NCBI GenBank assembly: GCA_943736015.1
Contig: OX031059.1
Location: 55,687,159-55,751,158 of the forward strand
Reading direction: 5' to 3'
From: Tridacna crocea
Lineage: Eukaryota > Mollusca > Bivalvia > Cardiida > Cardiidae
Length of the DNA: 64,000 bases
Shown here: positions 589 through 63,596 of the stretch, one piece after another
Position numbering within the stretch: position 1 is the stretch's first letter
Layout: every line of letters starts with the position of its first letter
Translations under genes and position numbers: made by a program
The notes under the pieces: model-generated
Seen by the model: the letters and a program-made list of their open reading frames with translations, nothing else
Databases searched by the model: none
What the model was told of the DNA's origin: nothing

Positions 589-3500
589 CTGAAATAAAAT
601 AATATACAAGTTATTATAACTTATAATGCCAGTTATTGATTGTACGTTACAGACAGAAAGTATACCAACCTGCAGCAAAAGCCATTACCACACAATCCCT
701 ACTTTTGATGACCTTGAGAAAGAAGCCTTTAGAAAACATTGTTGTCCCACAATGTTTTCTACCCTTCACAAAACAAATTTCAAATTTTCAGTCACTTTTA
801 TTTTGTCGTCTGCAAATGCTTTTTATTTGGACAAGCCTAAAATAATGTCGTTTGGTAATGAGATAACAAGATGCGGTCAAAGATACCAAACCTAGACATT
901 TGTTTTCAATGATAAAAGATGTCTCGCCCCCTCTCCTGTGACCTTTGAATCCTTATTACGACCTTGACCCAGGAAACTGATACATGAAACCTCATCTCAT
1001 AATACTACAGTCATAAGTGAAATAATTTTGAAATCAGACAATGGCTTCATGAGACTTGGAGTGGGCAGTTAGAGTCCTTAAAAAGTACAATTCAGCAGTA
1101 GCATGTGGTGTCCATGGCTGTGAGGTAGAGCGTCGGCCTCCTAGCCATAAGGTCCTGAGTTCAATACCCGTGCGCGGGTGTCAACTTTGGGATTTTTCAT
1201 TGGCCCAAACATTCAGCGTGAGTACTGCTGTAGTTCCCAGGAAGCAGAATCAAGAGAGATTAGTATAAGTTGTTAGAACTTGTTTCTGAATTGATATAAA
1301 ATAAATAAGTTTAACTCTTTACCACACGAGAAAATTTTAGACTGGTCCAAATTGAACGCATTTGCAGACTACAAAATAAAGGTGACTGAAAAATTGAAAT
1401 TTGTTCTGGGAAGGGTAGAAAACACTGTGGGAAAAGGAGAAAATGCTGGTTACCAGCATTTTCTCCTTTTCCCACAGTGTTTTCAAAAGGCATCTTTCTC
1501 GGGGGCGTCAAAAGTAGGGATTGTGTGGTAATGGGTTAAACTAACTAGCACTAGCATCTGTACCAATAAGCAAACCATGGTTGGTTTTGGTAAAGGTAAA
1601 AAGAAAAACTTGAATTTATGTCTACTTTCTCTCTTATATTTTTTTATTTCAATGTCTTCTTATAATAAACTATGATACTACGTGAATCGAATGATTCATC
1701 ATTGATCTTAACTCTTTACCAAACGACAAAAATTTAAACTGGTCCAAATTGAAAGCACTTGCAGACGACAAGTTAAACATAACTCAAAAATTGAAATTTA
1801 TTTCCAGCAGGGTAGAAAACGTTGTGGGAAAAGGAGAAAATGCTGGTTACCAGCATTTTCTCCTTTACCACAATGTTTTCAAAAGACTTCTATCTCAGGG
1901 TCGTAAAAACCCAGGTTTGTTGGGTAAAGGGTTAAATAATGCGACATAATTTTCTCCTGTTATTACTGTCTAGACTAAAGACTGTAAAAAGGCCTAGCAT
2001 TTAATCCATTACCAAACGACAATATTTTAGACTGGTCCAAATTGAAAGCATTTGCAGACGACAAAATAAAAGTGACTGAAAATTTGAAATTTCTTATGTG
2101 AAGGGTTTTCTTTGTGGGAAAAGGAGAAAATGCTGGTTACCAGCATTTTCTCCTTTTCCCACAATGTTTTCTATAGGCTTCTTTTTCAGGGGCATCAAAA
2201 GTAGGGATTGTGTGGTAATGGATTAATACAGGATAGCAAAGTTCAAATACCTTATAATCTACGCCTCCAATGATTTTGCGAACCAGTTGAAAAGTCCTGA
2301 TAAATGTCTTGGAATTCTGATAGATCATCTTCTCATGTTCCAGCATGTTTTCACAGACAAGCCTGTCACAGACAGTAAGTTTAAATTTTTTTACTTTTTT
2401 ACTTTACCACACAATCCTGAGTTAAAGCAACCCTGAAGAACATAGATATTGAAAACATTGTGGGAAAAGGAGAAAATGCTGGTAACCAGCATTTTTTCCT
2501 TTTTCCACCATGTTTTCTACCCCATCGAAGATAGAAATCATCACTGAAATTACATTTTTTTGTTGTCTGCAAATGTTCTCAACTTGGTTTAGTCCAAATC
2601 TTTATTGTTTGGGACAGAGTCAACACATTTACTCTGGTAATTTTCTTCCCTTCAATGAGCAGTTCTCTTTTAAAGACTGTGACAAAAGGAGAAGGATCTC
2701 CACACTAGAAGCTTTTGCTTTTGTCACAATTTCTACATGGGTATTCAATCATGTACATGGATGAAATAATAACCTATATAAGTTATCCTTATTTAAACAG
2801 GAATATTTCTGAAACTAAAAGATTATATAATGAGGTGATACTTTCCTACTTCTCTGATGAAATATTTTGTAACTAAAGCATTGGTAATAATTTTCATCAT
2901 GCTGACATAAATTATGCTGATGCATCTTCAGCCAGTACATTCTCTTTTAAAAAATGTGAAAGAGGATTCTATCATACATAGGAAATTTCATATTCCCCCC
3001 ACCCCCCACAAAAAAAAAGGTCAGGCATCCCACTGTCTCCTATTGTAACACTTTTTTTTTTTTATCATTTGTTGCTTATTTTACAAAATTTTCAAATTCC
3101 ATCTGTTTATATCTATTTACATTTATATTCAAAAAAAAAACTAAATACCTCCTGCATGTAAGTTGTTTGTCTGGCAGACTGCTCGTTACACAGTCTTAGG
3201 AAAAGGAAAAAGTGCTCTTAACAAGCAATAACTTCTCCATTTGCAGTCATGTTTTCACATGTAATAAGACACAGAGCCTGAATTTACATAAACTACTCAT
3301 GTGTGTTTTCATAGCTGTTTTCAAATTTTTCTGCAGCATTCGTTTCAGCTGTAAACAAGTTAACATTATTATTTACATGTAATCTTCTTCCACTTAAAAT
3401 GTTTACTTTACAATGCATGAAAAAATGTAACAATCAAATTAGATATGATCTTATCATTCACATGTTTCTCTTTTGTGTCTCCAATAAGATATATTTTGAT

Positions 3501-6500
3501 ATATCAAAAATCAAACTCTACAATTATGTAAAAACAAGAGGACCATGATGGTCCTATATCGCTCACTTGAGTACTAAGCTGTGAAATCGAACTTGTGACC
3601 CCTAGGCAGGGCCAGTTTTGACCCCTGCGGCATGCTAAGAAAAAACTTAGTAGAGGTCCCCTAGGAGATGCTACTTACAAAATATCAAAGCTCTACGCCT
3701 TCTAGTTTCAGAGAAGAAGATTTTTAAAGTTTTCCTTCTTTGTTCCTATGTTTCAAACTTATGACCCCCGGGGCGGGATCAGTTTTGACCCCAGGGGCAT
3801 CATATGAACAATCTTGGTAGAGGTTCATTAGGAGATGCTACATACCAAATATCAAAGCTCTACACCACCTAGTTTCAGACAAAAAGAATTTTAAAGTTTT
3901 CCTTCTTTATTTCTGTGTTTCAAACTTGTGACCCCGGGGCGGGGCCAGTTTTGACCCCAAGGACATCATATGAATCATCTTGGTAGAGGTCAACTAGCAG
4001 ATGCTACATACCAAATATGAAAGCTCTGCACCTTCTAGTTTCAAAGAAGAAGAATTTTAAAGTTTTCCTTCTTTGTTCCTATGTTTCAAACTTGTGACCC
4101 CTGGGGTGGGGCCAGTTTTGACCCCAGGGGCATCATATGAACAATCTTGGTAGAAGTCCACTAGGAGATGCTACAAACCAAATATGAAAGCTCTGCACCT
4201 TCTAGTTTCAGAGAATTTTTTTTTTAAGTTTTCCTTCTTTGTTCCTAAGTTTCAAACTTGTGACCCCCGGGGTGGGGCCAGTTTTGACCCCAGGGGCATC
4301 ATATGAACAATCTTGGTAGAGGTCCACTAGGAGATGCTACATACCAAAATATCAAAGCTCTCCGCCTTCTAGTTTCAGAGGAGAAGAATTTTATAGTTTT
4401 CCTTCTTTGCTCCTATAATACAAACTTGTGACCCCTGGGGCGGGTCCACTTTTGACCCCAGGGGCATCATATGAACAATCTTGGTAGAGGTCTACTAGGA
4501 GATGCTACATACCAATTATCAAAGCTCTGCACCTTCTAGTTTCAGACAAGAAGAATTTTAAAGTTTTCCTTCTTTGCTCCTATAATACAAACTTTTGACC
4601 CCCGGGGCAGGGCCACTTTTGACCCAAGGGGCATCATATGAACAATCTTAGTAGAGGTTTACTAGGAGTTGCTACATACCAAATATCAAAGCTCTGCACC
4701 TTCTAGTTTCAGAGAAGAAGATTTTTAAAGTTTTCCTTCTTTGTTCCTACGTTTCAAACTTGTGACCCCCGGGACGGGGCCAGTTTTGACCCCAAGGACA
4801 TTATATGAACAATCTTGGTAGAGGTCAACTAGCAGATGCTAAATACCAAATATGAAAGCTCTGCACCACCTAGTTTCGGAGAAAAAGAATTTTAAAGTTT
4901 TCCTTCTTTGTTCCTATGTTTCAAACTTGTGACCCCCGGGGGCGGGTCCAGTTTTGACCCCATGGGCATCATATGAATAATCTTGGTAGAGGTCCACTAG
5001 GAGATGCTACATACCAATTATCAAAGCTCAACGCTTTCTAGTTTCAAAGAAGAAGATTTTCAAAGATTTTGCTTTTTTTTTCCTTTTGGTTGCCATGGCA
5101 ACCAGAATTATGGCTGGTATTCAATCTCTTGAACAATTTTGGTAGAGTTTCACCAAAGGAACATCCCTGCCAAGTTACATCAAGATTGGCCCAGTGGTTT
5201 AGGAGGAGAAGATGTTTAAAGAAATTGTGGACGACGGATGACGCACAACGGACATTGGGCGATCACAAAAGCTCACCATGAGCACTTCATGCTCAGGTGA
5301 GATAACAGTGTTCATAAATATGATGTAATTGAACAGTGAGCTCCAGATAGAGGAAATGATTTCGAGTTCAATATATGAAAAAATTAATTATTCTCAAGTA
5401 AACCCTATGTTATGGGTACTCATTATAATCGTCTCATAACGTAAAATAGACAATTTTAACTAGTATTCACAACATAGGGTTTGGAACAGAAATAATGGAT
5501 TTAGAATACCATCACTCCCTCTTATCTGTAGCTCTGATTAAAAGTCCAAACCTAGGTAGCAGGATGTTTTTCTCAACCATGTTTTCCAACAGCCCAGCCA
5601 GCAAGTCCACCCTATTAGCATTTTTCTGATTGAAATAGCTGTTAGCAAATGCTTTCATTCCAATGCCATGGTTGTCCTACAAAAAGTGAAAAAGTAAATC
5701 AAAATTAAGGTTTAGTGTTCTAAATTTCTTGGTCTGTGCACTGCAAGGTCATAATGATAAGAGCCATACTCTTGCAAAAGGGGCTTTGATGAATCTTTGT
5801 GATGTATTGTATCCCTATATCCATTTTGTCTAACAACCAAATGAAACATGAGGTAGAACAGTCCTTTGACATGCAAAATGTTTTGACCCAGGTCAACCTG
5901 GGTTGATATTTTTTGCAGATGCATTAAGCCTTTACCACAAAATTCCGACTTTAAACTACCCTGAGAAAGAAGCCTTGTGAAAACATTGTAGGAAAAGGAG
6001 AAAATGCTGGTTACCAGCATTTTCTTCCTTTCCTCACAATGTTTTCTATCAATCCCCCCAAAAATATGAACCATCTAGCTTTCCCAGTGACCTAGTTTTT
6101 TATCAGACATTACCCATCATCAAACACTTTTGAGATATCAATAAGACAAACATTCTGACCAAGTTTCATGTGTATTGGACTGAAAATGTGGCCTCTACAG
6201 CGTACAAAAGGTTTTTCTTAGATTTGACCAAGTGACCTAGTTTTGGACCCGACAAACCCATTATCAAACTCTTTTGAGACATCACCAAAACAAACATTCT
6301 GACCAAGTTTGAAGAGTATCAGGAAGAAAATGTGGCTTCTAGAGTGTACCTAAGGTTTTTCTAATATTTGACCCATTGACCTAGTTTTTGACTCAACATG
6401 AGCCATTTTCAAACTCATTCAAGGTATCGCCAGGACAAATATTATGAATAAGTTTTAGGAGTATCAGAATGAAAATGTGTCCTCCAGAGCATATACAAGA

Positions 6501-8086
6501 TTTTTATAATATTTGACCTATTGACCCAGTTTTTGACCCAACATGACCAATTTTCAGTCATCCAAGATATTATCAAGGCAAATATTCTGACCAATTTTCA
6601 AGAGTGTTGGACTGAAAATGTGGCATCCAGAGCATATACAAGGTTTTTCTAAGATTTGACCTGGTGACCTAGTTTTTGACCCGACATGACCTATTTTCGA
6701 ACTCGTCTGAGCTATCATCAAGGCAAACATTCTGACCAACTTACAAGAGTTTTGGACTAAAAGTGTGGCCTCTAGAGCGTACAAAAGGTTTTTCTAACAT
6801 TTGACCTGGCGACCTAGTTTTTGACTCCTCTTGACCCATTTTCAAAATCATCTGAGATATCATCAAGGCAAACATTCTGACCAACTGTCAAGAGTTTTGG
6901 ACTGAAAATGTGGCCTCTAGAGCATACACACGGTTTTTCTAACATTTGACCTAGTGACCTAGTTTTTTACTAAACATGACCCATTTTCACACTCACCCGC
7001 AACATCATCAAGGCAAACATTCTGACCAACTTTCAAGAGTTTTGGACTGAAAATGTGGCCTCTAGAGCGTACACAATGTTTTTCTAAGATTTGACCTACT
7101 GACCTAGTTTTTGACCAAACATGACCCATTTTGAAACTCGTCTGAGATATCATCCAGACAAATACTCTGACCAACTGTAATGAGTATCGGACAGAAAATG
7201 TGGCCTCTAGAGCGTACACAAGGTAAAAGTTGACGACGGATGACTGACGACAGACGACGGACACAGCACTATCACAATAGCTCACTCTGAGCACTTCGTG
7301 CTCTGGTGAGCTAAAAAAAGACTAATGACACCATGGGGAAGACCAGAAAACAGCATAGGAAAAGGAGTAAAAACTGGTGACCAGCATTTTCTTCTTCTTT
7401 TTCAGTGCTTTCAAAGGCTCTTTTCCTTTAAACATGCATCTTTGCGGCTCAAGAGAAAAAAAATGCAGTTGATATTTTCTAGTGTGTATAATGGTTCAGA
7501 TATTGATCAGCCATGTAACCAAAGGTAAATGATCAATAAATATGGTGTTCAGGGCAGGGTCCAAAAAATTTCAGAATTCTTGCTTATCCTCCTGCCATTT
7601 TGCACTCGCCCTACAGTTAGACAAAGAAAGATAATCCACCTGCCCTCTCCAAATTTTTACAAGTAAGGACAAGCGGACGAGTGGATTTTTTTTTTATCCT
7701 GGTTCAGGGTAAGAAACTCAAAACCCAAAACAACAACTGTGATAGCCTGGAAGGTCTCCGAAGCATTATATTCATTTTCTATCTGTTATTGTCTATCACT
7801 CTGTGCAATCTTGCAGCTCTCAGGGGCAACAGTTGGCATAATGACAAAAGAAAAGACAAAGAGAAACTGCCCTTGATGAGCATCATCTCTTCCTAGCACA
7901 ATGGTTACAAAGATGGTCTGCTGTAAGACTAAAAGGTCTGTTGCTGGAAGTAAAGTAAGATTGTACCTGTGGAATACTTGTCCATAGTTTGACCATACAG
8001 TCAATACAATAGTCTCTGTTCCATTGTAATGTCTCCTCGGTGTGACTTATCAGACCACTGAAACCCTCCTCTACAGCCTCCCCTTT
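496..8086 (-). CDS. MED23: MED23, N-terminal part (4 exons, partial gene)
   Basis: Mediator complex tail-module subunit 23 (Sur-2/CRSP130), a nuclear co-activator linking transcription factors to RNA polymerase II. Four exons on the minus strand splice in frame: 8086-7967 (phase 0), 5676-5552 (ends two bases into an Arg codon), 2362-2251 (completes that Arg), 588-496. All have AG acceptors and GT donors. Together they encode about 150 residues, roughly residues 14-165 of the vertebrate protein. Recognition rests on the stretch LVRKIIGGVDYKGCRDLLR, which spans the third and fourth exons and is nearly identical to vertebrate MED23 as I know it, and on the preceding LLPRLVCEN. The 5' coding exon is unresolved and the gene continues beyond position 1. 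Introns are filled with hairpin MITEs, two tandem-array elements and SINEs. An alignment to MED23 would confirm it. Confidence 0.9.
684..868 (+). repeat. TTAA hairpin MITE type A, hairpin core deleted
   Basis: Both arms are present, but the palindrome is reduced to AACATTGTTGTCCCACAATG, a loss centred on the symmetry axis. Confidence 0.85.
1104..1310 (+). mobile_element. tRNA-derived SINE, family S1
   Basis: A tRNA-like head with box A (TGGCTGTGAGGTAGAGCG) and box B (GGTCCTGAGTTCAATACC), then a non-tRNA body with ATTTTTCATTGGCC and an A-rich tail. Four further copies or fragments lie in the window. Confidence 0.75.
1311..1539 (-). repeat. TTAA hairpin MITE type A, full length
   Basis: A reference copy. 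TTAACTCTTTACCACACGAG opens it and TGTGGTAATGGGTTAA closes it. The perfect central palindrome runs from ACACTGTGGGAAAAGGAG through GCTGGTTACCAGC to its mirror. The 5' TTAA abuts the S1 SINE tail. Confidence 0.95.
1708..1935 (-). repeat. TTAA hairpin MITE type A, full length
   Basis: TTAA at both ends; one mismatch in the palindrome (TTACCACAA against TTGTGGGAA). Confidence 0.93.
2001..2226 (-). repeat. TTAA hairpin MITE type A, full length
   Basis: Ends 25 bp from the donor of the MED23 IIGGVDYK exon. Confidence 0.93.
2251..2362 (-). CDS. MED23: MED23 coding exon with the IIGGVDYK core
   Basis: 112 nt: one base completing Arg plus 37 codons. The acceptor is CTGTGACAG and the donor gtatttg. 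It encodes LVCENMLEHEK... to ...LVRKIIGGVDYK. A hairpin MITE ends 25 bp beyond its donor (2226) and another begins about 36 bp before its acceptor (2398), so the exon is bracketed by hairpins. Confidence 0.92.
2398..2624 (+). repeat. TTAA hairpin MITE, diverged
   Basis: Left arm of type A (ACCACACAATCC), right arm of type B (TTGGTTTAGTCC, GTTTGGGA). Terminal TTAA mutated on both sides. Lies just upstream of a MED23 acceptor. Confidence 0.8.
2640..3531. other. MED23 intron without recognisable features
   Basis: AT-rich, with homopolymer runs near 2996 and 3050. No exon, repeat family or RNA gene seen. Confidence 0.6.
3532..5304 (+). mobile_element. Terminal-hairpin element with about nine 168-bp tandem units
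   Basis: The left end has ACAAGAGGACCATGATGGTC (palindrome AGGACCATGATGGTCCT) then ATCGCTCACTTGAG. The core repeats a 168-bp unit (CAAACTTGTGACCCC ... ATCTTGGTAGAGG ... TTTCCTTCTTTGTTCC). The right part has GGTTGCCATGGCAACC and ends with a GAGCACTTCATGCTC hairpin and GGTGAGAT. Shared ends with the elements at 15871, 37646 and 58328 and the right end at 7313 define the family. The Helitron/Helentron label is inference. Confidence 0.75.
5552..5676 (-). CDS. MED23: MED23 coding exon (residues about 54-95)
   Basis: 125 nt, starting in phase 0 after the acceptor TTTTTGTAG and ending in CCTAG before the donor gtttgg. It encodes DNHGIGMKAFANSY... to ...EKNILLPR, with the Arg codon split across the next junction. 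It sits alone between two tandem-array elements (3532-5304 and 6080-7313). Confidence 0.87.
5880..5927 (+). repeat. Palindromic repeat F, fragment (host of MITE at 5924)
   Basis: TTGACCCAGGTCAACCTGGG followed by TTTTTTGCAGATGCATTAA. The MITE to the right starts at this TTAA. Confidence 0.6.
5924..6052 (+). repeat. TTAA hairpin MITE, left half and hairpin
   Basis: Left arm and palindrome are intact. The right arm is lost after TTTTCTATC at the junction with the next array. Confidence 0.85.
6080..7313 (+). mobile_element. Terminal-hairpin element with eight 144-bp tandem units
   Basis: The anchor TGACCTAGTTTTTGAC recurs near 6088, 6231, 6379, 6524, 6664, 6808, 6952 and 7096. The right end has a GACGACGGA-rich spacer, then TGAGCACTTCGTGCTC and GGTGAGCTAAA. 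No left hairpin end is found, so it is 5'-truncated. Confidence 0.75.
7325..7425. repeat. TTAA hairpin MITE remnant (core only)
   Basis: GGAAAAGGAGTAAAAACTGG TGACCAGCATTTTC core with decayed arms. Confidence 0.55.
7430..7966. other. MED23 intron, nothing recognised
   Basis: No supported exon or known repeat; small frames overlap the next exon's shadow. Confidence 0.5.
7967..8086 (-). CDS. MED23: MED23 coding exon (residues about 14-53)
   Basis: 120 nt, 40 codons, phase 0 at both ends. The acceptor TTATTACAG precedes AAAGGGGAGG, and the exon ends in CACAG before the donor gtacaatc. It encodes KGEAVEEGFSG... through ...KLWTSIPQ, which lines up with the vertebrate K-T-E-V-I-E-E-A-F-P-G segment. 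It is the most 5' exon placed with confidence. Confidence 0.85.
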
Positions 8087-8136: not shown

Positions 8137-8432
8137 TAGGTTACCAAACGACGCTATTTTAGACTGTCAGATCCATATTGAAAGCACTTGCAGACGACAA
8201 CATAAACTTATCTCAAAAATAGAAAATTTGTTTCCAGCCGGATAGAAAACATTGTGGGAAAAGAAGAAAATACTGGTGACCAGCATTTTCTCCAAATTCA
8301 AAGCATTTGCAGACATAAATTTCAAATGTAGCTCAAATGATGGAACTTTTCTATAACTGAGCAGAAAATATTGTGAGATAAGGAGAAAATGCTGGTTACC
8401 AGCATTGTCTCCTTTCCCACAACGTTTTAGTT
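8137..8432 (-). repeat. Two fused TTAA hairpin MITE pieces
   Basis: A left arm plus hairpin ending in CAGCATTTTCTCC is joined directly to a second inner arm (AAATTCAAAGCATTTGCAGA) plus a second hairpin. Confidence 0.8.
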
Positions 8433-8628: not shown

Positions 8629-8970
8629 ATTCATTCTACAAGTCTATGATCAAAACACACCTGTAGAAATGAGTATATAATTAATATATGACAGTATATG
8701 AAAAATATATTTTTGCTGAAAACAGTAAAAACTCTATCACTTGTCACCATTTGCAACCATGGCTTATTTCTTCTCGATCCATTTGAAAATGATTCAGCTA
8801 CACAAAAATACAAAACCATTTTCAGCATATAGCATGTCTTGGAAATGCCTGATGCTTTACCTATCTTGAGCATTATGATTCTGTCCAATTGTGCACATGT
8901 GTATAACTACAATGACCAATGAAGTCAGAGAACAGCATTACAGGGTAATGGCCATTGGAATTTAGTTTAA

Positions 8971-9178
8971 AACATATTTTATGTTTTACATCGATTGAGA
9001 AACAAGTTCTTACAACTTATACTAATCGATCTCGATTAGTTCCTGGGAACTACACCAGTACTCGCGCCAAGTGTGTGGGCCAATGAAAAATCCAAAAGTT
9101 GACACCCGCCCCTAGGAATCGAACTCAAGACCTTTAGGTTATGAGGCCAACGCTTTATCTCACGACCATGGATACCAC
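8971..9178 (-). mobile_element. tRNA-derived SINE, family S1
   Basis: Reverse-oriented copy from AACATATTTTATGTTTTACA to the head complement CACGACCATGGATACCAC. Includes GAATCGAACTCAAGACC. Confidence 0.75.
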
Positions 9179-9349: not shown

Positions 9350-9584
9350 TTAACCCTTTACAAAACAATTAGTGGTTCTGACAACCCAGAGAAAGAAGCC
9401 CTCTGAAAACATTGTGGGAAAAGGTGAAAACGCTGGTAACCAGCAATTTCCTGCTTTCCCACAAAGTTTAATACTCTTCTACAGTCAAGTTTTTGTTTTT
9501 GAGTCAAGTTGGTTTTTTTTTTTGTCATCAGCAAATGCTTTAAATTTGGACAAGTCTAAAATTTTATCATTGGTAAATAGTTAA
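9350..9584 (+). repeat. TTAA hairpin MITE type A, diverged full length
   Basis: TTAA at both ends; hairpin slightly imperfect (CAGCAATTTCCTGC). Confidence 0.9.
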
Positions 9585-12867: not shown

Positions 12868-13456
12868 GTTAGTTTATTTGTTTGGGACACTGCCAAGATT
12901 TAGACTTGTACACCTGTTACTGTCGTGAGGCAACTAAATTTGTCAATCTTATCAAAGGAAAATGTTGGCGTTTTTTAGTATTGTCGCTGCAAACGTGTAC
13001 GATTATGTGTTGGTTAAAGTATTGGGTAACATTGATCGACAAAACTTTGGGAGTCTTAAATTGACAACTAGTAACGTTTTTCTTGTCGTTAACTGATGAA
13101 TACGACGAAACCAAGACCAATCTAGCATAACAACAACCAAAAAAGAAGATAATGCTGTGTTGGAAAATAAAATAATTAATCATCCTTTGTCTTTCCTAAG
13201 AATAAAAAGACTGACAGAATTATAGAATGGTAGAAAATCAACTTGGTGAACCGTATTGAAAGATAAGAGTCCTACGGTATTTGAAATAATAAAAAAATAA
13301 ACTTTAGCGATTTTTTTTTTTTCCAAAGAAATTGATGTTTCGGGCACTTACTGTAACAGCCTTAGTCAGTTTAAATGAGTACCTGCAGCATGTTTTTAAG
13401 AAAAATAAAGCAAGTTATCTTAAAAATATCTCAAGATACACATTGATTTCCTTTTC
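12868..13456. other. No gene recognised
   Basis: AT-rich; short frames only. If the promoter guess is right, this is light-chain intron 1. Confidence 0.4.
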
Positions 13457-13628
13457 CCATTAACACAGAGTCACAATTTTCAAGAATTAGAGAAAGAGGG
13501 TCTTTGAAAATATTGTGGAAAAATAAGAAAATGATAGTAATCAACATTTTCTTCTTTTCTTACAATGTTTTCTATGGAAGACAAATCGCGTTCAATTTGA
13601 GCCAGGCTAAAATTTTGTTGTCCGACGA
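13457..13628 (+). repeat. TTAA hairpin MITE, strongly diverged
   Basis: ATTGTGGAAAAATAAGAAAA ... TTTTCTTCTTTTCTTAC keeps the hairpin outline. Both ends decayed. Confidence 0.6.
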
Positions 13629-15525: not shown

Positions 15526-15745
15526 TTAACCTATTACCACACAATCCCTACTTTCGACTACCCTGAGAAAGAAGCCTTTAGAACACATTGTTGGAAAAGG
15601 AAAAAAATGCATTTTCTCCTTTTCCCACAATTTTTTCTAACCTTCACAAAACAAATTTCAAATTTTCTGTCACTTTTATTTTGTCGTCTGCAAATGCTTT
15701 CAATTTGGACAAGCCTAAAATTGGGCTGGTCTGGTAATGAGTTAA
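15526..15745 (+). repeat. TTAA hairpin MITE type A, shortened hairpin
   Basis: TTAA ends intact. The palindrome centre is lost (AAAAAAATGCATTTTCTCC), leaving a smaller palindrome around ATGCAT. Confidence 0.92.
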
Positions 15746-19019: not shown

Positions 19020-25263
<6,244 letters not shown>

Positions 25264-31337: not shown

Positions 31338-31342
31338 TATAT

Positions 31343-36030: not shown

Positions 36031-36109
36031 GATAGGAAAGAAAAAAAGAGATAGCTAGCATAAGTTAATGACTAAGCGGGTAAAATAGCTTCTCTTAAAG
36101 TAATTAATT

Positions 36110-42925: not shown

Positions 42926-42927
42926 TA

Positions 42928-46486: not shown

Positions 46487-46715
46487 AGATTACCACAAAT
46501 CCCTACTTTTGACGACCCTGAGAAAGAAGCCTTTTGAAAAAATTGTGGGAAAAGGAGAAAATGCTGCTAACCTGGTTAGCAACATTTTCTCCTTTTCCCA
46601 CAATGTTTTCTACCCTTCACAAACAAAATTAAAACTTTCCGTCACTTTTATTTTGTCGTCTGCAAATGCTTTCGATTTGGACAAACCTAAAATTTTGTCA
46701 TTTGGCAATGAGTTT
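46487..46715 (+). repeat. TTAA hairpin MITE type A, altered centre
   Basis: Hairpin centre TGCTGCTAACCTGGTTAGCA is a different, still palindromic sequence. Confidence 0.9.
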
Positions 46716-48023: not shown

Positions 48024-48312
48024 GGTGTAATGCAGAGAAATGACCCTCCCCTAAAAATGACCCATGGGCCATTTCACTACATACAGGAATGACCCGGGTC
48101 ATTATTCTACGTAGAGAAATGACCCTAGACTGTAAAGATGGACAGCCTGGGGTCATTTCTCTACGTAGAATAATGGTCATTATTCTACGTAGAGAAATGA
48201 CCCTAGACTGTAAAGATGGACAGTCTGGGGTCATTTCTCTACGTAAAATAATGACCCGGGTAATTCCTCTAAGTAGAGAAATGACCCATGGGTCATTTCT
48301 CTGCATTACGCC
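48024..48312. repeat. Compound palindromic element of AATGACCC units
   Basis: Termini GTAATGCAGAGAAATGACCC and GGGTCATTTCTCTGCATTAC. Inside, two tandem units of about 85 bp, each an inverted pair of TTCTACGTAGAGAAATGACC around GACTGTAAAGATGGACAG. Open frames on both strands are by-products of symmetry. Confidence 0.85.
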
Positions 48313-48710: not shown

Positions 48711-49529
48711 TGCAGGCCCAATTTATCTATGTTTTAGGTACATGTAAATGGCCTGTTTTCTGATGGGACATAGCCAACTTTCACGGACATGCCTTATCAG
48801 CAGTCTCGCATATCAACAAATCGATGAAAATAATCGATATCATACGTAAAGGTCCGGGAGTTTCCGGAGTTTGGCGAACTTACATCGTGTATACAAGTAA
48901 TCGATATTCAATAGCCTGCAGCGATAAAAGATAAGAGAAACGTAACATTACGTAACAGTGGCCAGCTTCAAATTCGCAATCCTTGCCTAGACGATATATC
49001 TGACCTGGCATTTTGTTTCTGATTTTAACCTAGACACCCTTTGTCTGGTACAGCCAGTGTGGCTCTTTAATATCAGTATCAGACTGCACATAATGCGCAC
49101 CCTTATTAGACTCAACAGCATATTGGAATTACACCCCCAGATAAAGCGAGATTTGTCTTGAGAAAAGAACATTGAAATTGTTATATGTCAGCTTTATTTG
49201 TCGGTTTGTAATTCATTTATCCTCATATTAAGGGTTAAGTTTTGATTCTCTAAGACATAAACTGATCGGTCCTAAAACTGCTCTCGACAAATGCATTTTT
49301 TGTAGTCTAATCCTGAAATCTAATCCGTCCAAATGCACTTTTGATGACATTGTAGATTTATAACAGGCTGCACAAAACAAGCTGCCTGATCTTGGACCCG
49401 ATCGATTCTATAAGTCGAAAATTATTTGGTTAAAAAAATCTTTGATATTCATAGCAAAATCAACAAGTTAAATTCAGCAGAAAATTCGGCATTTTGAGAG
49501 TGCCAGTTTAACACTACAGTAATCATACG
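48711..49529. other. No gene recognised
   Basis: Contains CATAGCCAACTTTCACGGAC, whose complement recurs near 52000 (TCCACGAAAGTTGGCTATG), so part belongs to a dispersed repeat. Confidence 0.45.
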
Positions 49530-49715
49530 TTCCCGAGTCTAACAGACCTGAGAGAAAAGGCTTTTGTAAACTTTGCCGGAAAGGGAGAAATTTTTCTTCT
49601 GTTCCTAAAATGTTCTATCTTTTCAAAGACGTACTTTATCGTTTGAGTTGCATTTCATTTGTTGTCTTGCAAATGTTTTAAACTTGGTAGTGTCCAAAAT
49701 TTCGCCATTCGGTTT
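49530..49715 (+). repeat. TTAA hairpin MITE, strongly diverged
   Basis: Arms recognisable (CCTGAGAGAAAAGGC, TTGTCTTGCAAATG). Hairpin partly lost. Confidence 0.6.
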
Positions 49716-50935
49716 TTTGATGAGGAAATTTTAACCAATCCGACCCTGAGAAAGAAAGACCAATCCGACCCTGAAAAAGCAAGCACGGACAGGAGAAAAT
49801 GCATTTTCAGATTACATATAAAAAAGCATTCATTCAAAGTTGGTTTTCACCGAACAAATAAAAGAAAATGGTTCGTTCCGAACACTCCATGTACTGTGTG
49901 GCGCCGATTTGTATTGGCTTAATGAGCGATGTTGCATTTACTTACAATGTCTACTACTATCAATAAATGTATTAAAATGTTTCCCTTTTCAGCGAGTCTA
50001 AAACCTGTTTAAGTATAAGTATTTCGGAACAACTTAGGTCTATCTATACACTAAACTATATCTTAATACATAAAAGTAGGTCCAAGCTATTATTATCACA
50101 CAAGTTTAAAAACGCTGCCGAAGTATTATATACTTAAGATTCTTTTTATTGCATCCGAAATGGAGGGAAAAAATGTGCTCGAGATGCAACAGAAAGTTAC
50201 TAAAAGGTTCGTGTTGAAAGTATCATAACGTATCAGCACTCGTGAACTGATCAGATGCTACACTCTAGCGCCGCTTACAGGCATGATAAAGATAAAAAGG
50301 TATTTCTTCCTCTAAAAAAGTTATGTATATGGTGTCATTTCAACTAATCACTGGCAAGCTGTGGTAAAACCGGTTTCAAACCAAGATACATGTAGATCAT
50401 TCTTAATACAAGGTTGATAAAATACAATTTCTTGAAGTAATAAATAATGATTACGCAGCAGGTAACTTTTTAGGTTACTGGTAAAGTAGAAGTAGCTTGT
50501 ATTATTCCCATATCCATGTACATGCATAGTCTATGTCAATTTTTTTTCCCATCTTTTATTCACTCTTAGCGGTTATTCTGTTTACAAGTTGCGTCGTTTT
50601 AAAGATGGAAGAACCTTACTGTTTAGGCTAATTCTTCAAATGAACAATTAAAATATTAAAGATGTTAAGGGGAGGGGGGCATTTGAAAGAAGGGAGAAAC
50701 TGTTTGATTGATGTGAAAAAAAGTTGTCAATTTTTATCTAGTGTTGTCATTCTTTGAATGCTAAATACCCTTTGCAGGAGAAACCGATTGAGTGATGCAG
50801 ACAATATTGTTTGAAAAGTAGAAGATAACTTGTAAAAAGATAATGCGCCTGTTTCCATATTTTATCCTAAAAAATCAAGAGCAGGGTCGTTAGATGCCGT
50901 ATTTATATAGTAACAGGTTAAGCTTGTTATTTGAA
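49716..50935. other. No feature recognised
   Basis: AT-rich, no supported exon or repeat. Confidence 0.5.
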
Positions 50936-51130
50936 TCTTTACCAAAAGACAAAAATTCAGACTTGTTCAAAATGAAGTAATTTTCTTAAGACAAATAAAA
51001 CAATAAAAAATGGAACATATCTTTTATCGAGTTAAAAATAGTGCAAGAAAAGGAGGAATTGTTGGTAACCAGCGTTGAAATCTTTTTCTTCAATCTTTTC
51101 AAAGGCCTTCTATATGACATGACAGATCAA
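50936..51130 (-). repeat. TTAA hairpin MITE, strongly diverged
   Basis: TTTACCAAAAGACAAAAATTC arm and GCAAGAAAAGGAGGAATTG core. Confidence 0.6.
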
Positions 51131-52450: not shown

Positions 52451-52679
52451 TTAACCCTTTCCCAAACAATCCCTGGTTTTTACGGGTCTGGAAAAGTAGC
52501 CTTTTGAAAACATTGTGGGAAAAGGAGAAAATGCTGGTAACCAGCATTTTCTCCTTTTCCCACAATGTTTTCTACACTATCATAGACAGAAATCATCTTT
52601 TCAACAAGAGTTGAATTGTCGTCTGCAAATGCTTTCAATTTGGTCTAGTCCAAAAGTTTGTCGTTTGGGAAAAGGTTAA
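52451..52679 (+). repeat. TTAA hairpin MITE type B
   Basis: Intact, a clean type B reference: CCCAAACAATCCCTGG and TTTGTCGTTTGGG ends. Confidence 0.95.
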
Positions 52680-52829: not shown

Positions 52830-53387
52830 GTAAAAGCCGCTGTTTTTTTGCCCCTGGAGCAAAAAAAAAAATGAACTCTTTACCTTCTCCTGGGGACTTT
52901 TTTTTTTGTCTTGCTCACGACCGCTCTTTGAAACATTTTGAAAAGGAGAAATTGCTCGTGATCAGAACTTATCCTTTAGCCAAGATAGTTTCAAATATAC
53001 AGGTATAAAACACATCCTAGTTAGATGATAAATTTAGATAATTGGGGATCCACCTAAATCCCGATTCATTACTTTGATTGAGCAGGGATGTTTCCCGACG
53101 TCGCATGCTGAACGGTGCTTTCACAGATAGTATAGGAATTGTTCTTTCAAGAATCGATTTTACACTAGGTACTGCATAATGTACAGTTTAGTACCTAACT
53201 CGGAATTCCTCTCACAATTGTTGCTCCCTTTCGCGATTAGTTTAAGTCAAATCATGATTTCACCAAAGACCAGTCTCATTTTAAAGCATCCTGTCAGATT
53301 TAATCATAGTACATAATTTGGTTAAAATGACATCGGAGTTTCACCAGTCAAGCGCTTCTTCTTCTCTAGGGTCGAAAAACGTCTTCC
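52830..53387. other. Mostly unassigned
   Basis: A very decayed MITE core may lie at 52868-52985 (GAAAAGGAGAAATTGCTCG). Nothing else. Confidence 0.35.
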
Positions 53388-53616
53388 TGAACCCATTACC
53401 AAACGACAATATTTTAGACTGGTCCAAATTGAAAGCATTTGCAGACGAGAAAATAAAAGTGACTGAAAATTTGAAATTTGTTTTGTGAAGGGTAGAAAAC
53501 ATTGTGGGAAAAGGAGAAAATGCTGGTTACCAGCATTTTCTCCTTTTCCCGTAATATTTCCTAAAGGCTTGTTTCTCAGGGGCGTCAAAAGTAGGGATTG
53601 TGTGGTAATGGGTTAA
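53388..53616 (-). repeat. TTAA hairpin MITE type A
   Basis: Left terminal TTAA mutated (TGAA). Otherwise intact. Confidence 0.93.
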
Positions 53617-53884: not shown

Positions 53885-54062
53885 AAACTCCGTATCAAAT
53901 GACAAAAAAAAAGGATTCATCCAAATTAAAAGCATCTGAAAACAAACCAAGGGTGATTGCTGTCTTTAAAAACAGTACAAAACAAAATGGCGAAAAAGTT
54001 GAAGATGCCGGTAATCAGTGTTTTCTTCTTATCCAAATAGTTTCAAAACGCCCGTTCCGGAA
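53885..54062 (-). repeat. TTAA hairpin MITE, strongly diverged
   Basis: ATCAAATGACAAAAA arm and ATGCCGGTAATCAGTG core. Confidence 0.55.
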
Positions 54063-54305
54063 GGCCGGAAGGTTCGTTTAAACACACAGTTATGTAGAAA
54101 AAAATTAATGGACAGAAATCATATATTTTTCTAAAACAACATTCACGTTTTTGTGTCGACATTTTAGAGATAAGGACCAAGTGGGGAAGAATTACTGCCT
54201 TACTTTGAAAAGAGAATTATTTATTCTATTTGAAGCTTTTCAGAGCGAGTCTTGCTTTTCAATAGCGAGTGTAAATACGATCTATTTTTCCTTTGATAAC
54301 GTATT

Positions 54306-54534
54306 TTAACTCATTACCACACGAGAAAAATTTAGACTGGTCCAAATTGAAAGCATTTGCAGACGACAAAATAAAGGTGACTGAAAAATTGAAATTTGTT
54401 CTGGGAAGGGTAGAAAACACTGTGGGAAAAGGAGAAAATGCTGGTTACCAGCATTTTCTCCTTTTCTCACGGGGTTTTCAAAAGGCTTCTTTCTCAGGGG
54501 CGTCAAAAGTAGGGATTGTGTGGTAATGGGTTAA
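54306..54534 (-). repeat. TTAA hairpin MITE type A
   Basis: Close to the 1311 copy in arms. Hairpin outer stem damaged (CTCACGGGGTTTTC). Confidence 0.94.
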
Positions 54535-54671: not shown

Positions 54672-54745
54672 AGCCATTGTAGATCAAAGATCAGAAAACC
54701 CAGAAAGCGCAGTCTGATTTTTCGGTCTACACTGTCTGCTATATC
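54672..54745. repeat. Short hairpin repeat G, diverged
   Basis: GATCAAAGATCAGAAAACCC and GCGCAGTCTGATTTTTCGGT. Confidence 0.6.
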
Positions 54746-54821
54746 GATAGGTGAGTGCAACACTATTCTAAGTGCCTGTACAATGTACAGGCACTTAGAA
54801 TAGTGTTGCACTCACCTATCG
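54745..54821. repeat. Perfect 77-bp palindrome, copy 1
   Basis: Two 38-base arms around one A, with no mismatch: CGATAGGTGAGTGCAACACT ... to the mirror ... AGTGTTGCACTCACCTATCG. Centre CTGTACAATGTACAG. Non-coding. Confidence 0.97.
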
Positions 54822-55170: not shown

Positions 55171-55422
55171 TTAACCCTTTCCCAAACAATCCCTGGTTTT
55201 TACGGGTCTGGAATAGTAGCCTTTTAAAAACATTGTGGGAAAAGGAGAAAATGCTGGTAACCAGCATTTTCTCCTTTTCCCACAATGTTTTCTATCCTAT
55301 CATGGACAGAAATCACCTTTTCAGCAAGAGTTGAATTGTCGTCTGCAAATGGTTTCAATTTGCAGAATCAAATGCTTTCAATTTGGTCTAGTCCAAAAGT
55401 TTGTTGTTTGGGAAAGGGTTAA
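55171..55422 (+). repeat. TTAA hairpin MITE type B with internal duplication
   Basis: A 24-bp piece of the right arm (CAAATG(C/G)TTTCAATTTG) is repeated. Confidence 0.93.
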
Positions 55423-56599: not shown

Positions 56600-56676
56600 G
56601 AAAAAAGGTTTTGGCCCAGGTCAGCCTACGTGGTCTATGCAGGCTGACCTCGTCAATACCTTTTGCAGATTCATAA
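56600..56676. repeat. Palindromic repeat F (host of MITE at 56674)
   Basis: GCCCAGGTCAGCCTACGTGG ... GCAGGCTGACCTC ... TTTTGCAGATTCAT. The MITE follows at the expected TTAA. Confidence 0.7.
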
Positions 56677-56906
56677 ACCCTTTCCCAAACAATTCCTGGT
56701 TTTACGACCCTGAAATAGTTCTGAAGCCTTCTGAAAACATTGTGGGAAAAGGAGAAAATGCTGGTAACCAGCATTTTCTCCTTTTCCCACAATGTTTTCT
56801 ACCCTGCTGGAAACAAATTTCAAGTTTTGAGGCATGTTTATTATGTCGTCTGCAAGTGCTTTCAATTTGGACCAGTCCAGAATTTTTTTGTTTGGTAAAA
56901 GGTTAA
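56674..56906 (+). repeat. TTAA hairpin MITE, B-left/A-right hybrid
   Basis: Left terminus CCCAAACAATTCCTGG (B), right arm with TTGGACCAGTCC and GTTTGGTAAAAGG (A). Confidence 0.92.
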
Positions 56907-56959: not shown

Positions 56960-57188
56960 TTAACTCATTACCAAACGACAAAATTCTAGACTGGTCCAAA
57001 TTGAAAGCATTTGCAGACGACAAAATAAAAGTGACTGAAAATTTGAAATTTGTTTTGTGAAGGGTAAAAAACATTGTGAGAAAAGGAGAAAATGCTGGTC
57101 ACCAGCATTTTCTCCTTTTCCCACAATGTTTTCTAAAGGCTTCTTTCTTGGGGTCGTCAAAAATAGGGATTGTGTGGTAATGGGTTAA
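56960..57188 (-). repeat. TTAA hairpin MITE type A
   Basis: Intact. Unit 1 of a tandem segmental duplication. Confidence 0.94.
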
Positions 57189-57325
57189 ACATGTAGAAAA
57201 ATGACTCATTTAAAAAAAAAAGGTTTTTGCCCAGGTCAGCCTCCTCGTCAATACCTTTTGCAGATTCAGTAAGGCCCATTTTAACAGATCATGGTTCATA
57301 TGAGTTAATTTCTAGGAAGAGGGAT
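57189..57325. repeat. Segmental duplication spacer with F remnant
   Basis: Repeats 56575-56672 joined to 56907-56959 (ACATGTAGAAAAATGAC ... GATCATGGTTCATATGAG), lacking the MITE at 56674. Confidence 0.8.
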
Positions 57326-57556
57326 TTAACTCATTGCCATACGACAAAATTCTAGATTGGTCCAAATTGAAAGCATTTGCAGACGACAAAATAAAAATGA
57401 CTGAAAATTTGAAATTTGTTTTGTGAAGGGTAGAAAACATTGTGGGAAAAAGGAGAAAATGCTGGTAACCAGCATTTTCTCCTTTTCTCACAATGTTTTC
57501 TAAAGGCTTCTTTCTCAGGGTCGTCAGAAAATAGGAATTGTGTGGTAACGGGTTAA
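57326..57556 (-). repeat. TTAA hairpin MITE type A
   Basis: Duplicate of the 56960 copy. Shares its right TTAA with the next element. Confidence 0.94.
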
Positions 57557-57781
57557 CCCTTTACCAAAAAATCCCTTGTTTTCACGACCCTGAGAAAGAA
57601 GCCTTCTGAAAACATTGTGGAAAAAGGAGAAAATGCTGGTAACCAGCATTTTCTCCTTTTCCCACAATGTTTTATACCTTTCTCGAAACATTTTTTTATT
57701 TTTAAGTTACCTTCATTTTGTCTTCTGCAAGTGCTTCCAAATTGGACCAGTCTAAAATTATGTCGTTTGGTAAAGAGTTAA
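57553..57781 (+). repeat. TTAA hairpin MITE type A/B mixture
   Basis: Opposite orientation to its left neighbour, joined through one TTAA. Confidence 0.92.
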
Positions 57782-58327: not shown

Positions 58328-61065
58328 ACAAGAGGACCATGATGGTCCTATATCGCTCACCTGAGTACCAAGCGGTAAAGATTTACAATGAAGATAAATA
58401 CCAAATATCGAAGTGCAAGGCCAAAGCTTTAGGTCTTCTTGGTTTAGATAAGAAGATAATCTGTCTTAACCAAATCCGGTTATATAAATATTTAAGAGAA
58501 GTTTGAATGATATTTGTCCAATAGTTGTTGAAAAATAGGGAGAACAAGATATTTCATCAAAGGAAAATGACTTTGTAAAAATTCAATGAACCGTCACCAA
58601 AATATAATATGCACATTCTTGCTTGGCACCGAGTCTCTCTAAAATTTGAATGAAATCTGTCCTGTAGTTGTTGAGAACAAGCTCTGACAAGAAAATGCTA
58701 CAGAAAGACTGCTGGATGGATGGACGGACCAACAAGCTGACTCCTATATACCTCCAGAACAGAGTTTTGAAGGAATAATAACAAAGCCCTAGGCCTTTTG
58801 GTGTGTGGCAAAAAGTTGCCTGATTTGAGCAAACTTAGTAGAGAATGTTTGCCGATTCAAGACTTTCTATACAAGTTAATATTATAATGTTGTTAAATAC
58901 ACCAACAACTACAGTGGTTGTCCAGGGACATGTTCATGGGTAATGGCTATTGTAAACACATCAACAATGTATTTACACTTGCAATAGTCTTGCACCAACC
59001 TTTCAATGCGTCCAGCTTACAAAAATTTGCCCTTCAAGTGTGACACTGACCTTGGCCCTACCTGAACAGATCTTTCAAATGGTACTTCATTTCATGGTGG
59101 AGTATATGCCCAAAATCTTTTTTTTTTTTTTTTTTTTTTTTTGGGGGGGGGGGGGGGATTTCCTTCTTTATCTCTATGTGAAATCTGAGAACCCACAACA
59201 TAGGGCCAATTTCTACACTAGGGCCATTATTTGAAGTCTTTTGGTAGAGGGCCGCTAGATGATACTACATGCCATATATGAGAGCTCTAGCCTTTATGGT
59301 TTGGGACAAGAAGATTTCTAAAGATTTCCTTCTTTATCTCTATGTGAAATCCAAGAACCCACAACGTAGGGCTATTTTCAACACTAGGGCCATAATTTGA
59401 AGTATTTTGGTAGAGGGCCACTAGATGATGCTACATGCCAAATATGAAAGCTCTAGCCCTTAAGGTTTGGGACAAGAAGATTTTTGAAGATTTCCTTCTT
59501 TATCTCTATGTGAAATCCGAGAACCCACAACATAGGGCCAATTTCCATACTAGGGCCATTATTTGAAGTATTTTAATAGGGGGCCACTAGATGATACTAC
59601 ATGCCATATATGAGAGCTCTAGCCTTTATGGTTTGGGACAAGAAGATTTTTAAAGATTTCCTTCTTTATCTCTATGTGAAATCCAAGAACCCACAACATA
59701 GGGCTATTTTCAACACTAGGGCCATAATTTGAAGTATTTTGGTAGAGGGCCACTAGATGATGCTACATGCCAAATATGAAAGCTCTAGCCCTTAAGGTTT
59801 GGGACAAGAAGATTTTTGAAGATTTCCTTCTTTATCTCTATGTGAAATCCGAGAACCCACAACATAGGGCCAATTTCCATACTAGGGCCATTATTTGAAG
59901 TATTTTAATAGGGGGCCACTAGATGATACTACATGCCATATATGAGAGCTCTAGCCTTTATGGTTTGGGACAAGAAGATTTTTAAAGATTTCCTTCTTTA
60001 TCTCTATGTGAAATCCAAGAACCCACAACATAGGGCCATTTTCAACACTAGGGCCATAATTTGAAGTATTTTGGTAGAGGGCCACTAGATGACGCTGCAT
60101 GCCAAATATGAAAGCTCTAGCCCTTAAGGTTTGGGACATAAAGTTTTTTACAGATTTCCTTCTCTATCTCTATGTGGAATCAGAGAACCCACAACATAGG
60201 GCCAATTTCCACACTAGGGCCATTATTTGAAGTATTTTGGTAGAGGGCCACTAGATGATACTACATGCCATATATGAGAGCTCTAGCCCTTATGGTTTGG
60301 GACAAGAAGATTTTTAAAGATTTCCTTCTTTATCTCTATGTGAAATCCGAGAACCCACAACATAGGGCCATTTTCAAACTAGGGCCATAATTTGAAGTAT
60401 TTTGGTAGAGGGTCACTAGATGATGCTACATGCCAAATATGAAAGCTCTGGCCCTTACGGTTTGGGACAAGAAGATTTTTAAAGATTTCCTTCTTTATCT
60501 CTATGTGAAATCCGAGAACCCACAACATAGGGCCAATTTCTACACTAGGGCCATTATTTGAAGTATTTTAATAGAGGGCCACTAGATGATACTACATGCC
60601 ATATATAAGAGCTCTAGCCTTTATGGTTTGGGACAAGAAAATTTTTAAAGATTTCCTTCTTTATCTCCATGTGAAATCCAAGAACCCACAACATAGGGCC
60701 ATTTTCAACACTAGGGCGATAATTTGAAGTATTTTGGTAGAGGGTCACTAGATGATGCTACATGCAAAATATGAGAGCTCTAGCCCTTACGGTTTGGGAC
60801 AAGAAGATTTTTAAAGTTTTTTCTCTCGGTTGCCATGGCAACCAAAGTTCTCCATGGAATTCAAATCTTTGAAGTATTTTGAAAGTGCATCACCTAAGGA
60901 TCATTTCTGTGAAGTTTCACTGAAATCTGTTAGGCGGTTTCAGAGGAGAAGAATTTTTAAGTAATTGTTCACGGACAGACGGACAGACACACGGACGGAC
61001 GGACGCCGGACAACGATCGATCACAATAGCTCACCCTGAGCACTATGTGCTTAGGTGAGCTAAAA
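58328..61065 (+). mobile_element. Terminal-hairpin element with ten 166-bp units in dimers
   Basis: Complete element. Left ACAAGAGGACCATGATGGTC and ATCGCTCACCTGAG; right GGTTGCCATGGCAACC, GACGGACAGAC-rich spacer, CACCCTGAGCACTATGTGC and GGTGAGCTAAA. Array 59118-60800: GAACCCACAACATAGGGC recurs every 166 bp. Units are distantly like those at 3532-5304. Confidence 0.8.
59118..59157 (+). repeat. T25-G15 homopolymer junction
   Basis: 25 T followed directly by 15 G at the start of the first array unit. Possibly a sequencing or assembly weak spot. Confidence 0.9.
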
Positions 61066-61311: not shown

Positions 61312-61485
61312 TGTACAAAATAAAGGTAACTGAAAAGTTGAAATTTGTTCTGGGAAGGGTAGAAAACACTATGGGAAAAGGAGAAAATGCTGGTTACCAG
61401 CATTTTCTCCTTTTCCTACAGTGTTTTCTAAAGGCTTCTTTCTCAGGGGCGTCAAAAGGAGGGATTGTGTGGTAATGGGTAATCA
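61312..61485 (-). repeat. TTAA hairpin MITE, left-truncated
   Basis: Joined at ACAAAATAAAGG to (ATGTACA)-rich DNA. Right end GGTAATGGGTAAT. Confidence 0.9.
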
Positions 61486-61993: not shown

Positions 61994-62221
61994 TTAACCC
62001 TTTACTGCACAATCCCGACTTGTAAAGACCCTGAGAAAGAAGCCGTAAGAAAACATTGTTTGAAAAGGAGAAAATGCTGATAAACAACATTTTCTCCTTT
62101 TAAAACAATGTTTTCCACCCTTTCCAGATTAATTTTCAATTTTTGAGTCACCCTAATTTTGTTGTCTGCAAATGTTTTCAATTTGGGCCAATAAATATTT
62201 TGCTGTTTGGTAAAGAGTTAA
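61994..62221 (+). repeat. TTAA hairpin MITE type A
   Basis: Hairpin changed on both arms (TTGTTTGAAAAGG and CCTTTTAAAACAA). Confidence 0.92.
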
Positions 62222-62262: not shown

Positions 62263-62338
62263 CGATAGGTGAGTGCAACACTATTCTAAGTGCCTGTACA
62301 TTGTACAGGCACTTGGAATAGTGTTGCACTCACCTATC
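62263..62338. repeat. Near-perfect palindrome, copy 2
   Basis: Same sequence as 54745-54821 except for a few bases. Arms differ at one pair (T opposite G). Centre CTGTACATTGTACAG. Confidence 0.97.
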
Positions 62339-62359: not shown

Positions 62360-62566
62360 GTTTTACCACACAGTCTAGAGTTTTAATGAACCTGAGGTGG
62401 ACACCTTTCGAAAAAATCGAGGAAAAAGGAGTATTTTCTCCTTTTTCCACAACATTTTCAGTCCTATCAAAGACAAGTTCCCTCTTTTGAGTCTCATCTA
62501 AATGTCGTCTGCAGATGCGTTAAATTTGGATAAATCCATACTTTTGTCATTTGATAAAGAGTTGTT
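62360..62566 (+). repeat. TTAA hairpin MITE, diverged, shortened hairpin
   Basis: Hairpin reduced to GAAAAAGGAGTATTTTCTCC TTTTTCCAC. Confidence 0.8.
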
Positions 62567-62724: not shown

Positions 62725-62952
62725 TTAACCCATAACCACACAATCCCTACTTTTGACGCCCCTGAGAAAGAAGCCTTTGGAAAACATTGTGGGAAAAGGA
62801 GAAAATGCTGGTAACCAGCATTTTCTCCTTTTCCCAGAATGTTTTCTACCCTTCACAAACAAATTTCCAATTTTCAGTCACTTTTATTTTGTTGTCTGCA
62901 AATGCTTTTAATTTGGACCAGTCTAAAATATTATTGTTTGGTAATGGGTTAA
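62725..62952 (+). repeat. TTAA hairpin MITE type A
   Basis: Full length. Offers AATAAA on the minus strand downstream of the right-edge gene. Confidence 0.94.
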
Positions 62953-63203: not shown

Positions 63204-63596
63204 TTAACCCATTACCACACAATCCCTACTTTTGACGACCCTGAGAAAGAAGCCTTTAGAAAACATTGTGGGAAAAGGAGAAAATGCTGGTAACCAGCAT
63301 TTTCTCCTTTTCCCACAATGTTTTCTATCCTTCACAAAACAAATTTCAAATTTTCAGTCACTCTTATTTTGTCGTCTGCAAATGCTTTCGATTTAGACAA
63401 GCCTAAAATATTGTCATTTGGTTTGGTGTTGCAGCAGGCTACTTTTGACATTGGTTACCAGCATTTTCTCCTTTTCCCACAATGTTTTCTATCCTTCACA
63501 AAACAAATTTCAAATTTTCAGTCACTCTTATTTTGTCTTCTGCAAATGCTTTCGATTTAGACAAGCCTAAAATATTGTTGTTTGGTAATGAGTTAA
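63204..63596 (+). repeat. TTAA hairpin MITE type A with right half duplicated
   Basis: A full element to about 63424, a 28-bp bridge, then the right half again from GGTTACCAGCATTTTC to TTAA. Confidence 0.93.

Follow-up and report, generated by a model that had tools for sequence, protein, structure and literature searches.

The window analysed here is a 64,000-bp stretch of the genome of the bivalve Tridacna crocea (assembly GCA_943736015.1, contig OX031059.1, positions 55,687,159 to 55,751,158). It is AT-rich (33.7–40.1% GC in 4-kb steps), and the only Pfam match among its open reading frames (ORFs) of at least 90 amino acids is a host exon at 19030–19299, which matches the EF-hand model and resembles animal myosin regulatory light chains (best E value 1.8e-34). 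About one fifth of the window is occupied by a gene-less element of ~229 bp, henceforth family 1, which carries an internal palindrome. Using the copy at 1311–1539 (plus strand, 229 bp, TTAA at both ends, palindrome at 1418–1484) as the first blastn query, we retrieved 37 near-full copies; an nhmmer profile built from these, with non-overlapping regions kept at E values up to 1, yielded 80 regions with a total length of 13,903 bp (21.7% of the window). The E value is below 1e-3 for 71 of the 80 regions (two of the 71 being palindromes of a second family, see below), and 44 regions span at least 200 of the 229 positions. A preliminary description of this DNA had counted roughly 60 copies or remnants of one TTAA-bounded hairpin family: the repeat is real, and while its TTAA-bounded nature is supported by two empty sites, the ‘one family’ resolves into at least four arm groups plus 10 ungrouped copies, with a second TTAA family beside it. 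Single-stranded DNA folding of one whole copy (34232–34460, plus strand, perfect palindrome) gave z = -10.9, and matches to a loose terminus motif number 117 in the window as compared to 19.5 in mono-shuffled windows; chance is therefore excluded. As a short, many-copied element with terminal inverted repeats and no coding capacity, family 1 is a miniature inverted-repeat transposable element (MITE).

The consensus begins with TTAA, a ~15-bp terminal repeat and the left arm. Its 67-bp palindrome has column 141 of 229 as its centre and lies 107 bp from one tip and 55 bp from the other; a shorter right arm, the second terminal repeat and TTAA complete the element. In line with the preliminary description of unrelated arms, we detected no similarity between the two arms of the element, either direct (P = 0.73) or as reverse complement (P = 0.62). 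The palindrome, initially described as near-perfect and 55–60 bp long, is longer than that, consisting of two 33-bp arms round one base; while the consensus arms are perfect, perfect arms are retained in just 7 of the 37 copies (gapped copies scored as imperfect). One candidate origin of its odd centre, an ancestral TTAA (GGTTAACC) that is now one base short, was rejected, as this form is absent from the centre columns of the 37-copy alignment. The palindrome core had no matches in viral contigs and none in prokaryotic genome contigs. No description of the family was found in the literature, as judged by titles and the starts of abstracts, with repeat libraries lying outside this comparison.

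The palindrome is the most faithfully kept part of the element, more so than the ends, which hints that it aids the spread of the element; the preliminary description had recognised the central hairpin as unusual but missed that it is better conserved than the termini. Mean divergence from the consensus is 4.8% in the palindrome region, as compared to 14.7% for the left arm and 14.6% for the right, and to 13.9% and 10.1% for the terminal segments. Among the 56 copies compared (out of a set of 61 palindrome sequences), the arms have diverged from the consensus more than the palindrome in 49; the copy at 52451–52679 (minus strand) differs from the consensus by 27.5% in the arms and 0% in the palindrome, and that at 39565–39783 (plus strand) by 26.6% and 1.4%, respectively. 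We separated private changes, which are found in one copy and are mostly post-insertion, from shared changes, which are found in at least two copies and are mostly inherited from source copies. The private rate is 2.1% for the palindrome, with 2.0% and 1.8% for the two arms and 1.3% and 2.2% for the terminal repeats; the TTAA sites reach 4.4%. For shared changes, in contrast, the palindrome stands at 2.7% (its inner 35 bp at 1.1%), the arms at 12.7% and 12.8% and the terminal repeats at 14.3% and 8.8%. Counted as alleles, the arms have 86 private and 136 shared ones and the palindrome region 52 and 23 (P = 5e-6); the terminal repeats have 21 and 27 (P = 0.008 relative to the palindrome). Equal private but low shared change indicates that inserted copies are free to decay whereas the palindrome stays fixed in the source copies, and a palindrome fixed in source copies would probably act in cis in the making of new copies. 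A second, weaker conserved block lies in the left arm at consensus columns 41–60 (e.g. 1351–1370, ATTGAAAGCATTTGCAGACG), with ~5% shared variation.

Clustering by arms at a cut-off of 0.2, with copies joining no group of three left out (10 of 37), resolved groups of 18, 3, 3 and 3 copies. The four consensuses, representing 27 of the 37 copies, are 12.5–29.2% apart in the arms and 6–19% apart in the terminal repeats, and differ at none of the 67 palindrome positions, the nearest differences lying just outside, at columns 107 and 175. For the 49 of 666 copy pairs with arms less than 10% apart, the mean difference is 7.6% in the arms and 7.4% in the palindromes, and for the 320 pairs with arms more than 25% apart the palindromes still differ by only 9.2% on average. 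This pattern indicates that every copy's palindrome decays from the same master, regardless of subfamily. At the left edge of the conserved zone shared variation drops gradually between column 99 (21/37) and column 108 (2/36); at the right edge column 175 is variable (15/36), yet columns 176–185 vary in only 0–5 of 37 copies, which is at odds with the abrupt right edge that column 175 alone would suggest.

Could DNA mechanics, rather than selection, keep the palindrome uniform, through stalling or breakage at the hairpin followed by arm-to-arm or copy-to-copy repair? The hairpin does behave as mechanically active. Several copies have a deleted palindrome centre or core (679–865, core; 15527–15745 and 62362–62563, centre; all minus strand), a duplicated one (fragment 29255–29382, minus strand) or a rebuilt one (fragment 45986–46136, plus strand; copy 46489–46714, minus strand), and in two head-to-tail tandem duplications of the left half plus flank, both on the minus strand, the break falls at the palindrome centre: 31196–31489 (96%), beside the full copy 31109–31337, and 63288–63586 (97%), where the left half 63452–63596 and its flank lie beside the full copy 63204–63429. 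Such centre-break duplications would be expected from a replication fork that stalled and then restarted. Moreover, the two-sided palindrome changes seen in the single copies 24085–24312 (plus strand), 40371–40596 (plus strand) and 61994–62221 (minus strand) are the expected residue of arm-to-arm correction, and conservation tails off gradually at the left edge of the zone and in part at the right one, edges soft enough to accommodate conversion. However, unbiased arm-to-arm correction makes changes symmetric and should not slow them, while copy-to-copy correction should erase private mutations, which are equally frequent in the palindrome and the arms; several diverged copies have palindromes 14–28% off the consensus. 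Nor are truncations significantly enriched at the centre (4 of 33 truncated ends versus 1.8 expected, P = 0.11), and we do not claim a truncation hot spot there. On balance, we regard a purely mechanical origin of the uniformity as rather unlikely.

A second TTAA family provides an outside comparison for the palindrome. It comprises two 230-bp elements on the plus strand, 35541–35770 (palindrome 35649–35715) and 41276–41505 (palindrome 41384–41450), which are 90% identical and have the ends TTAACC(C/T)TTTACCCC and GGAGTAAAGGGTTAA. Similarity to family 1 is undetectable in the left arm (P = 0.25) and weak in the right arm (P = 0.018), whereas the length is within 1 bp of family 1, the palindrome sits in the same position and 57 of its 67 positions are identical. 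Judged from this sequence agreement, the family-2 palindrome is homologous to that of family 1 even though no similarity of the left arms is detectable. The palindromes of the two families are set apart by four two-sided pair changes that both family-2 copies share, all of them G-C/C-G or A-T/T-A swaps; the remaining differences are at the centre or copy-specific. Immediately to the right of the palindrome, family 1 and the element 35541–35770 carry AAAGGCT(T/C)CT or close variants, which gives the palindrome a polarity.

Pairing was scored over 33 hand-chosen palindromes (30 distinct, mostly of exact length, out of 61), in which 95.9% of cells are paired and both sides are changed in 16 cells (8 of them in the two family-2 rows), as compared to 1.8 in shuffles and 2–6 in slid controls. 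Over the 37 family-1 copies, both sides are changed in 11 cells: 8 are complementary, four of these representing one inherited change, and 3 are not. As the two-sided changes preserve pairing, and as perfect 33-bp arms round one base are expected to form a strong RNA hairpin, the palindrome might be selected as RNA, i.e. as a transcribed hairpin giving a microRNA- or siRNA-like product of benefit to the element or its host. One-sided changes that leave a G-U pair (C>T, A>G; 20) nevertheless show no clear excess over the others (G>A, T>C; 15), a comparison of weak power, and no Rfam family reaches its gathering score in the window; we consider an RNA role very improbable. Selection for symmetry alone is likewise disfavoured, because symmetric changes should then accumulate between subfamilies, and inside family 1 the sole inherited one is at columns 115/167. 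The best fit is selection, acting on the source copies, for a specific sequence of two-fold symmetry.

Both ends are TTAA in 26 of the 37 near-full copies, one end in 8 and neither end in 3, so that the TTAA ends given in the preliminary description hold for most copies rather than all. The CCC(A/T)TTACCA-like termini it had listed are mostly found at the right end, while the left end is mostly CTC(A/T)TTACCA or CCC(A/T)TTACCA, CCC being the left-end minority, and the element is thus less symmetrical than described. We searched for empty sites with 39 joined-flank queries (37 from family 1 and two from family 2); the spanning matches mostly hit the flank of the copy itself or the ends of other elements, and of six alignments inspected one is clean, one nearly clean, one weakly supportive and three uninformative. 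In the clean case, the joined flanks of the family-2 copy 35541–35770 align with 35897–36057 over 161 bp (96%), where TTAA occurs once. In the nearly clean one, the family-1 copy 56674–56906 (minus strand) is matched by ~57243–57352, with one GTAA and, further to the left, a gap of 20 bases. The joined flanks of 1311–1539 against 8900–9060 are weakly supportive, to the right of the site. Since an empty paralogous site has one TTAA, duplication of the TTAA target is supported. In two cases neighbouring elements have a TTAA in common: TTAA 57553–57556 belongs to the tail-to-tail copies 57326–57556 (plus strand) and 57554–57781 (minus strand), and another one to the family-1 copy 41503–41728 (minus strand) and the family-2 copy 41276–41505. 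Finally, the terminal repeats covary (columns 8/222, P = 2e-5; columns 11/219, P = 0.002), as is expected if the two ends are read by one enzyme.

Which enzyme this would be is suggested by the target and the ends. TTAA is not unique to piggyBac, as Sola3 targets it too, and the mover could belong to another TTAA-targeting superfamily such as Sola3; the lack of a transposase among the window ORFs of at least 90 amino acids leaves room for this. However, CCCTT and CCCAT are among the end motifs reported in a survey of animal piggyBac elements (PMC10813416), with which the TTAA and the CCCTT/CCCAT right ends of family 1 agree, the left ends being mostly CTC and Sola3 ends being outside the comparison. 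In addition, insect Sola3 MITEs are reported to average ~428 bp (PMC5199201) versus ~229 bp here, and we consider a Sola3-type mover improbable. The piggyBac-type source put forward in the preliminary description thus gains from the TTAA duplication and the CCC-type ends, and membership of piggyBac is likely, not proven, as no transposase is tied to these ends; its statement that the window lacks an autonomous partner holds for the 50 ORFs of at least 90 amino acids.

Taken together, we give about an even chance to the reading that family 1 is a high-copy, gene-less ~229-bp MITE moved in trans by a piggyBac-type transposase and that its 67-bp palindrome is selected and acts in cis. On this reading it is a MITE of an ordinary kind whose unusual feature is a cis-acting site of two-fold symmetry, probably under selection. 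A piggyBac-type transposase encoded elsewhere in the host would mobilise the MITE in trans. The palindrome is no by-product, as source copies have preserved it letter for letter through 12–29% of drift in the arms; a transposase dimer, or possibly a host factor, would grip the two-fold symmetric DNA site. The mechanism we consider most likely is that the gripped symmetric site would help to join the two element ends. Both half-sites have changed together between families 1 and 2, and once inserted the palindrome is unprotected and occasionally rearranged at its centre.

Several points weigh against this reading. Related copies are not independent, and the P values are therefore optimistic; three of the four subfamily consensuses are built on 3 copies each; and 7 of 56 copies have a palindrome at least as diverged as their arms. 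The conservation edge is not sharp, and a conversion tract could also produce such fading. No transposase was found among the 50 window ORFs of at least 90 amino acids, shorter or broken coding pieces being outside the scan. The 67 bp far exceed the 19-bp palindromes of piggyBac (see below). Finally, there is no detectable copy of the terminus within the palindrome, and a binding motif common to both appears unsupported: the idea that a palindrome arm is a terminal-repeat copy was dropped after local alignment against dinucleotide shuffles gave P values of 0.50 (left end) and 0.23 (right end) for the outward arm and 0.057 and 0.55 for the inward arm.

Short hairpin MITEs are familiar from the Tc1/mariner type, e.g. 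human MADE1, which is a near-perfect palindrome end to end and targets TA. Family 1 is equally short and has a near-perfect palindrome, but only its middle is palindromic and its target is TTAA. The Daphnia piggyBac MITEs mPok1 and mPok2 have in common with family 1 the TTAA target, 12–16-bp imperfect terminal repeats and the miniature form, while averaging 760 bp (PMC4912750), in contrast to the ~229 bp with a 67-bp palindrome seen here; other piggyBac MITEs are reported at 50 to 2x10^4 copies per genome (PMC4912750), as compared to ~70 regions in 64 kb here. In piggyBac itself, each end contains 19-bp palindromes, placed asymmetrically from the tips and bound by the paired cysteine-rich domains of the transposase dimer (PMC11707139). 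The ends of piggyBac and piggyBat thus have, as family 1 does, internal palindromic sites that are asymmetric to the tips, and in piggyBac and piggyBat these are read by the transposase; they are 19-bp or imperfect palindromes near the ends (PMC11707139), whereas here there is one 67-bp palindrome within 229 bp. The dyad site described here would be an analogue, not a demonstrated homologue, of the piggyBac palindromes.

The remaining family-1 regions are given here by strand; unless stated otherwise, family-1 coordinates come from the profile search of the window. Further copies on the plus strand are 1708–1934, 2002–2225, 23164–23392, 25677–25904, 28439–28665, 30473–30699, 40596–40822, 41783–42011, 42154–42380 (perfect palindrome), 53390–53616, 54306–54534 and 56960–57188, and those on the minus strand are 2402–2622, 9350–9584, 20188–20416, 21061–21286, 23820–24047, 32613–32843, 37147–37375, 44737–44964 and 62725–62952, as well as 55171–55362, the larger piece of a copy adjoined by the fragment 55369–55422 (minus). 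Copies of a subfamily with TTTCCCA ends lie at 17989–18214 (minus) and 21678–21906 (plus), and 52451–52679 also belongs to it. Besides 63452–63596, halves that end at the palindrome centre are the left halves 23007–23151 (plus) and 31342–31483 (minus) and the right half 25592–25679 (minus), which abuts the copy at 25677. That 23007–23151 is a duplicate of its neighbour was not borne out, as its best matches (85.5%) are other copies; TRF (Tandem Repeats Finder) lists 23007–23309 as a 158-bp tandem at 85%.

Fragments are found on the plus strand at 7334–7425, 20820–20915, 45697–45775, 61315–61480 and 8141–8428, the last consisting of two consecutive pieces (8141–8293 and 8291–8428) with the junction within a palindrome arm, and on the minus strand at 5924–6065, 13456–13624 (diverged), 20127–20190 (abutting the copy 20188–20416), 24771–24953, 34713–34855 (diverged) and 35249–35341. 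Diverged remnants lie at 17422–17608, 30061–30261, 42889–43084, 50934–51113 and 53886–54067 on the plus strand and at 49524–49713 on the minus strand, a further remnant at 24330–24517 (minus), and remnants of the palindrome at 3197–3256 (minus) and 52931–52995 (plus).

The window also contains other repeats. A separate hairpin repeat, with a 75–77-bp palindrome, is nearly identical at 54745–54821 and 62264–62338 with differing flanks. A third palindromic repeat, with the core TCTGATTGG, is found at 35458–35529, 35894–35965 and 45830–45919, and the family-2 empty site lies in a repeated segment that includes this palindrome. At 48097–48287 there are tandem palindromic units (GGTCATT...AATGACC) with a period of 78 bp. 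Four tandem arrays have units of 165–167 bp (3590–5084, 16541–17223, 37905–38948 and 59157–60820) and another has a unit of 145 bp (6086–7224); these are reminiscent of the satellite-like arrays of oyster Helentrons (PMC7492417). The longest open frame, 32898–33947 on the minus strand (350 amino acids), has no Pfam match at E 0.01.

Internal sequences are reported to tune transposon activity, as with the inhibitory internal binding site of piggyBat, and rice Stowaway is cited in the same context (PMC11707139). An open question is why a few MITE families attain enormous copy number. Here, the constraint on source copies, set against the free decay after insertion, points to one 67-bp module. 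It is possible, although we consider this doubtful, that in a TTAA transposon lineage the palindrome is a required amplification module, constrained above the terminal repeats and common to families with unrelated left arms, and that it, and not the ends, decides which MITEs spread in this host.

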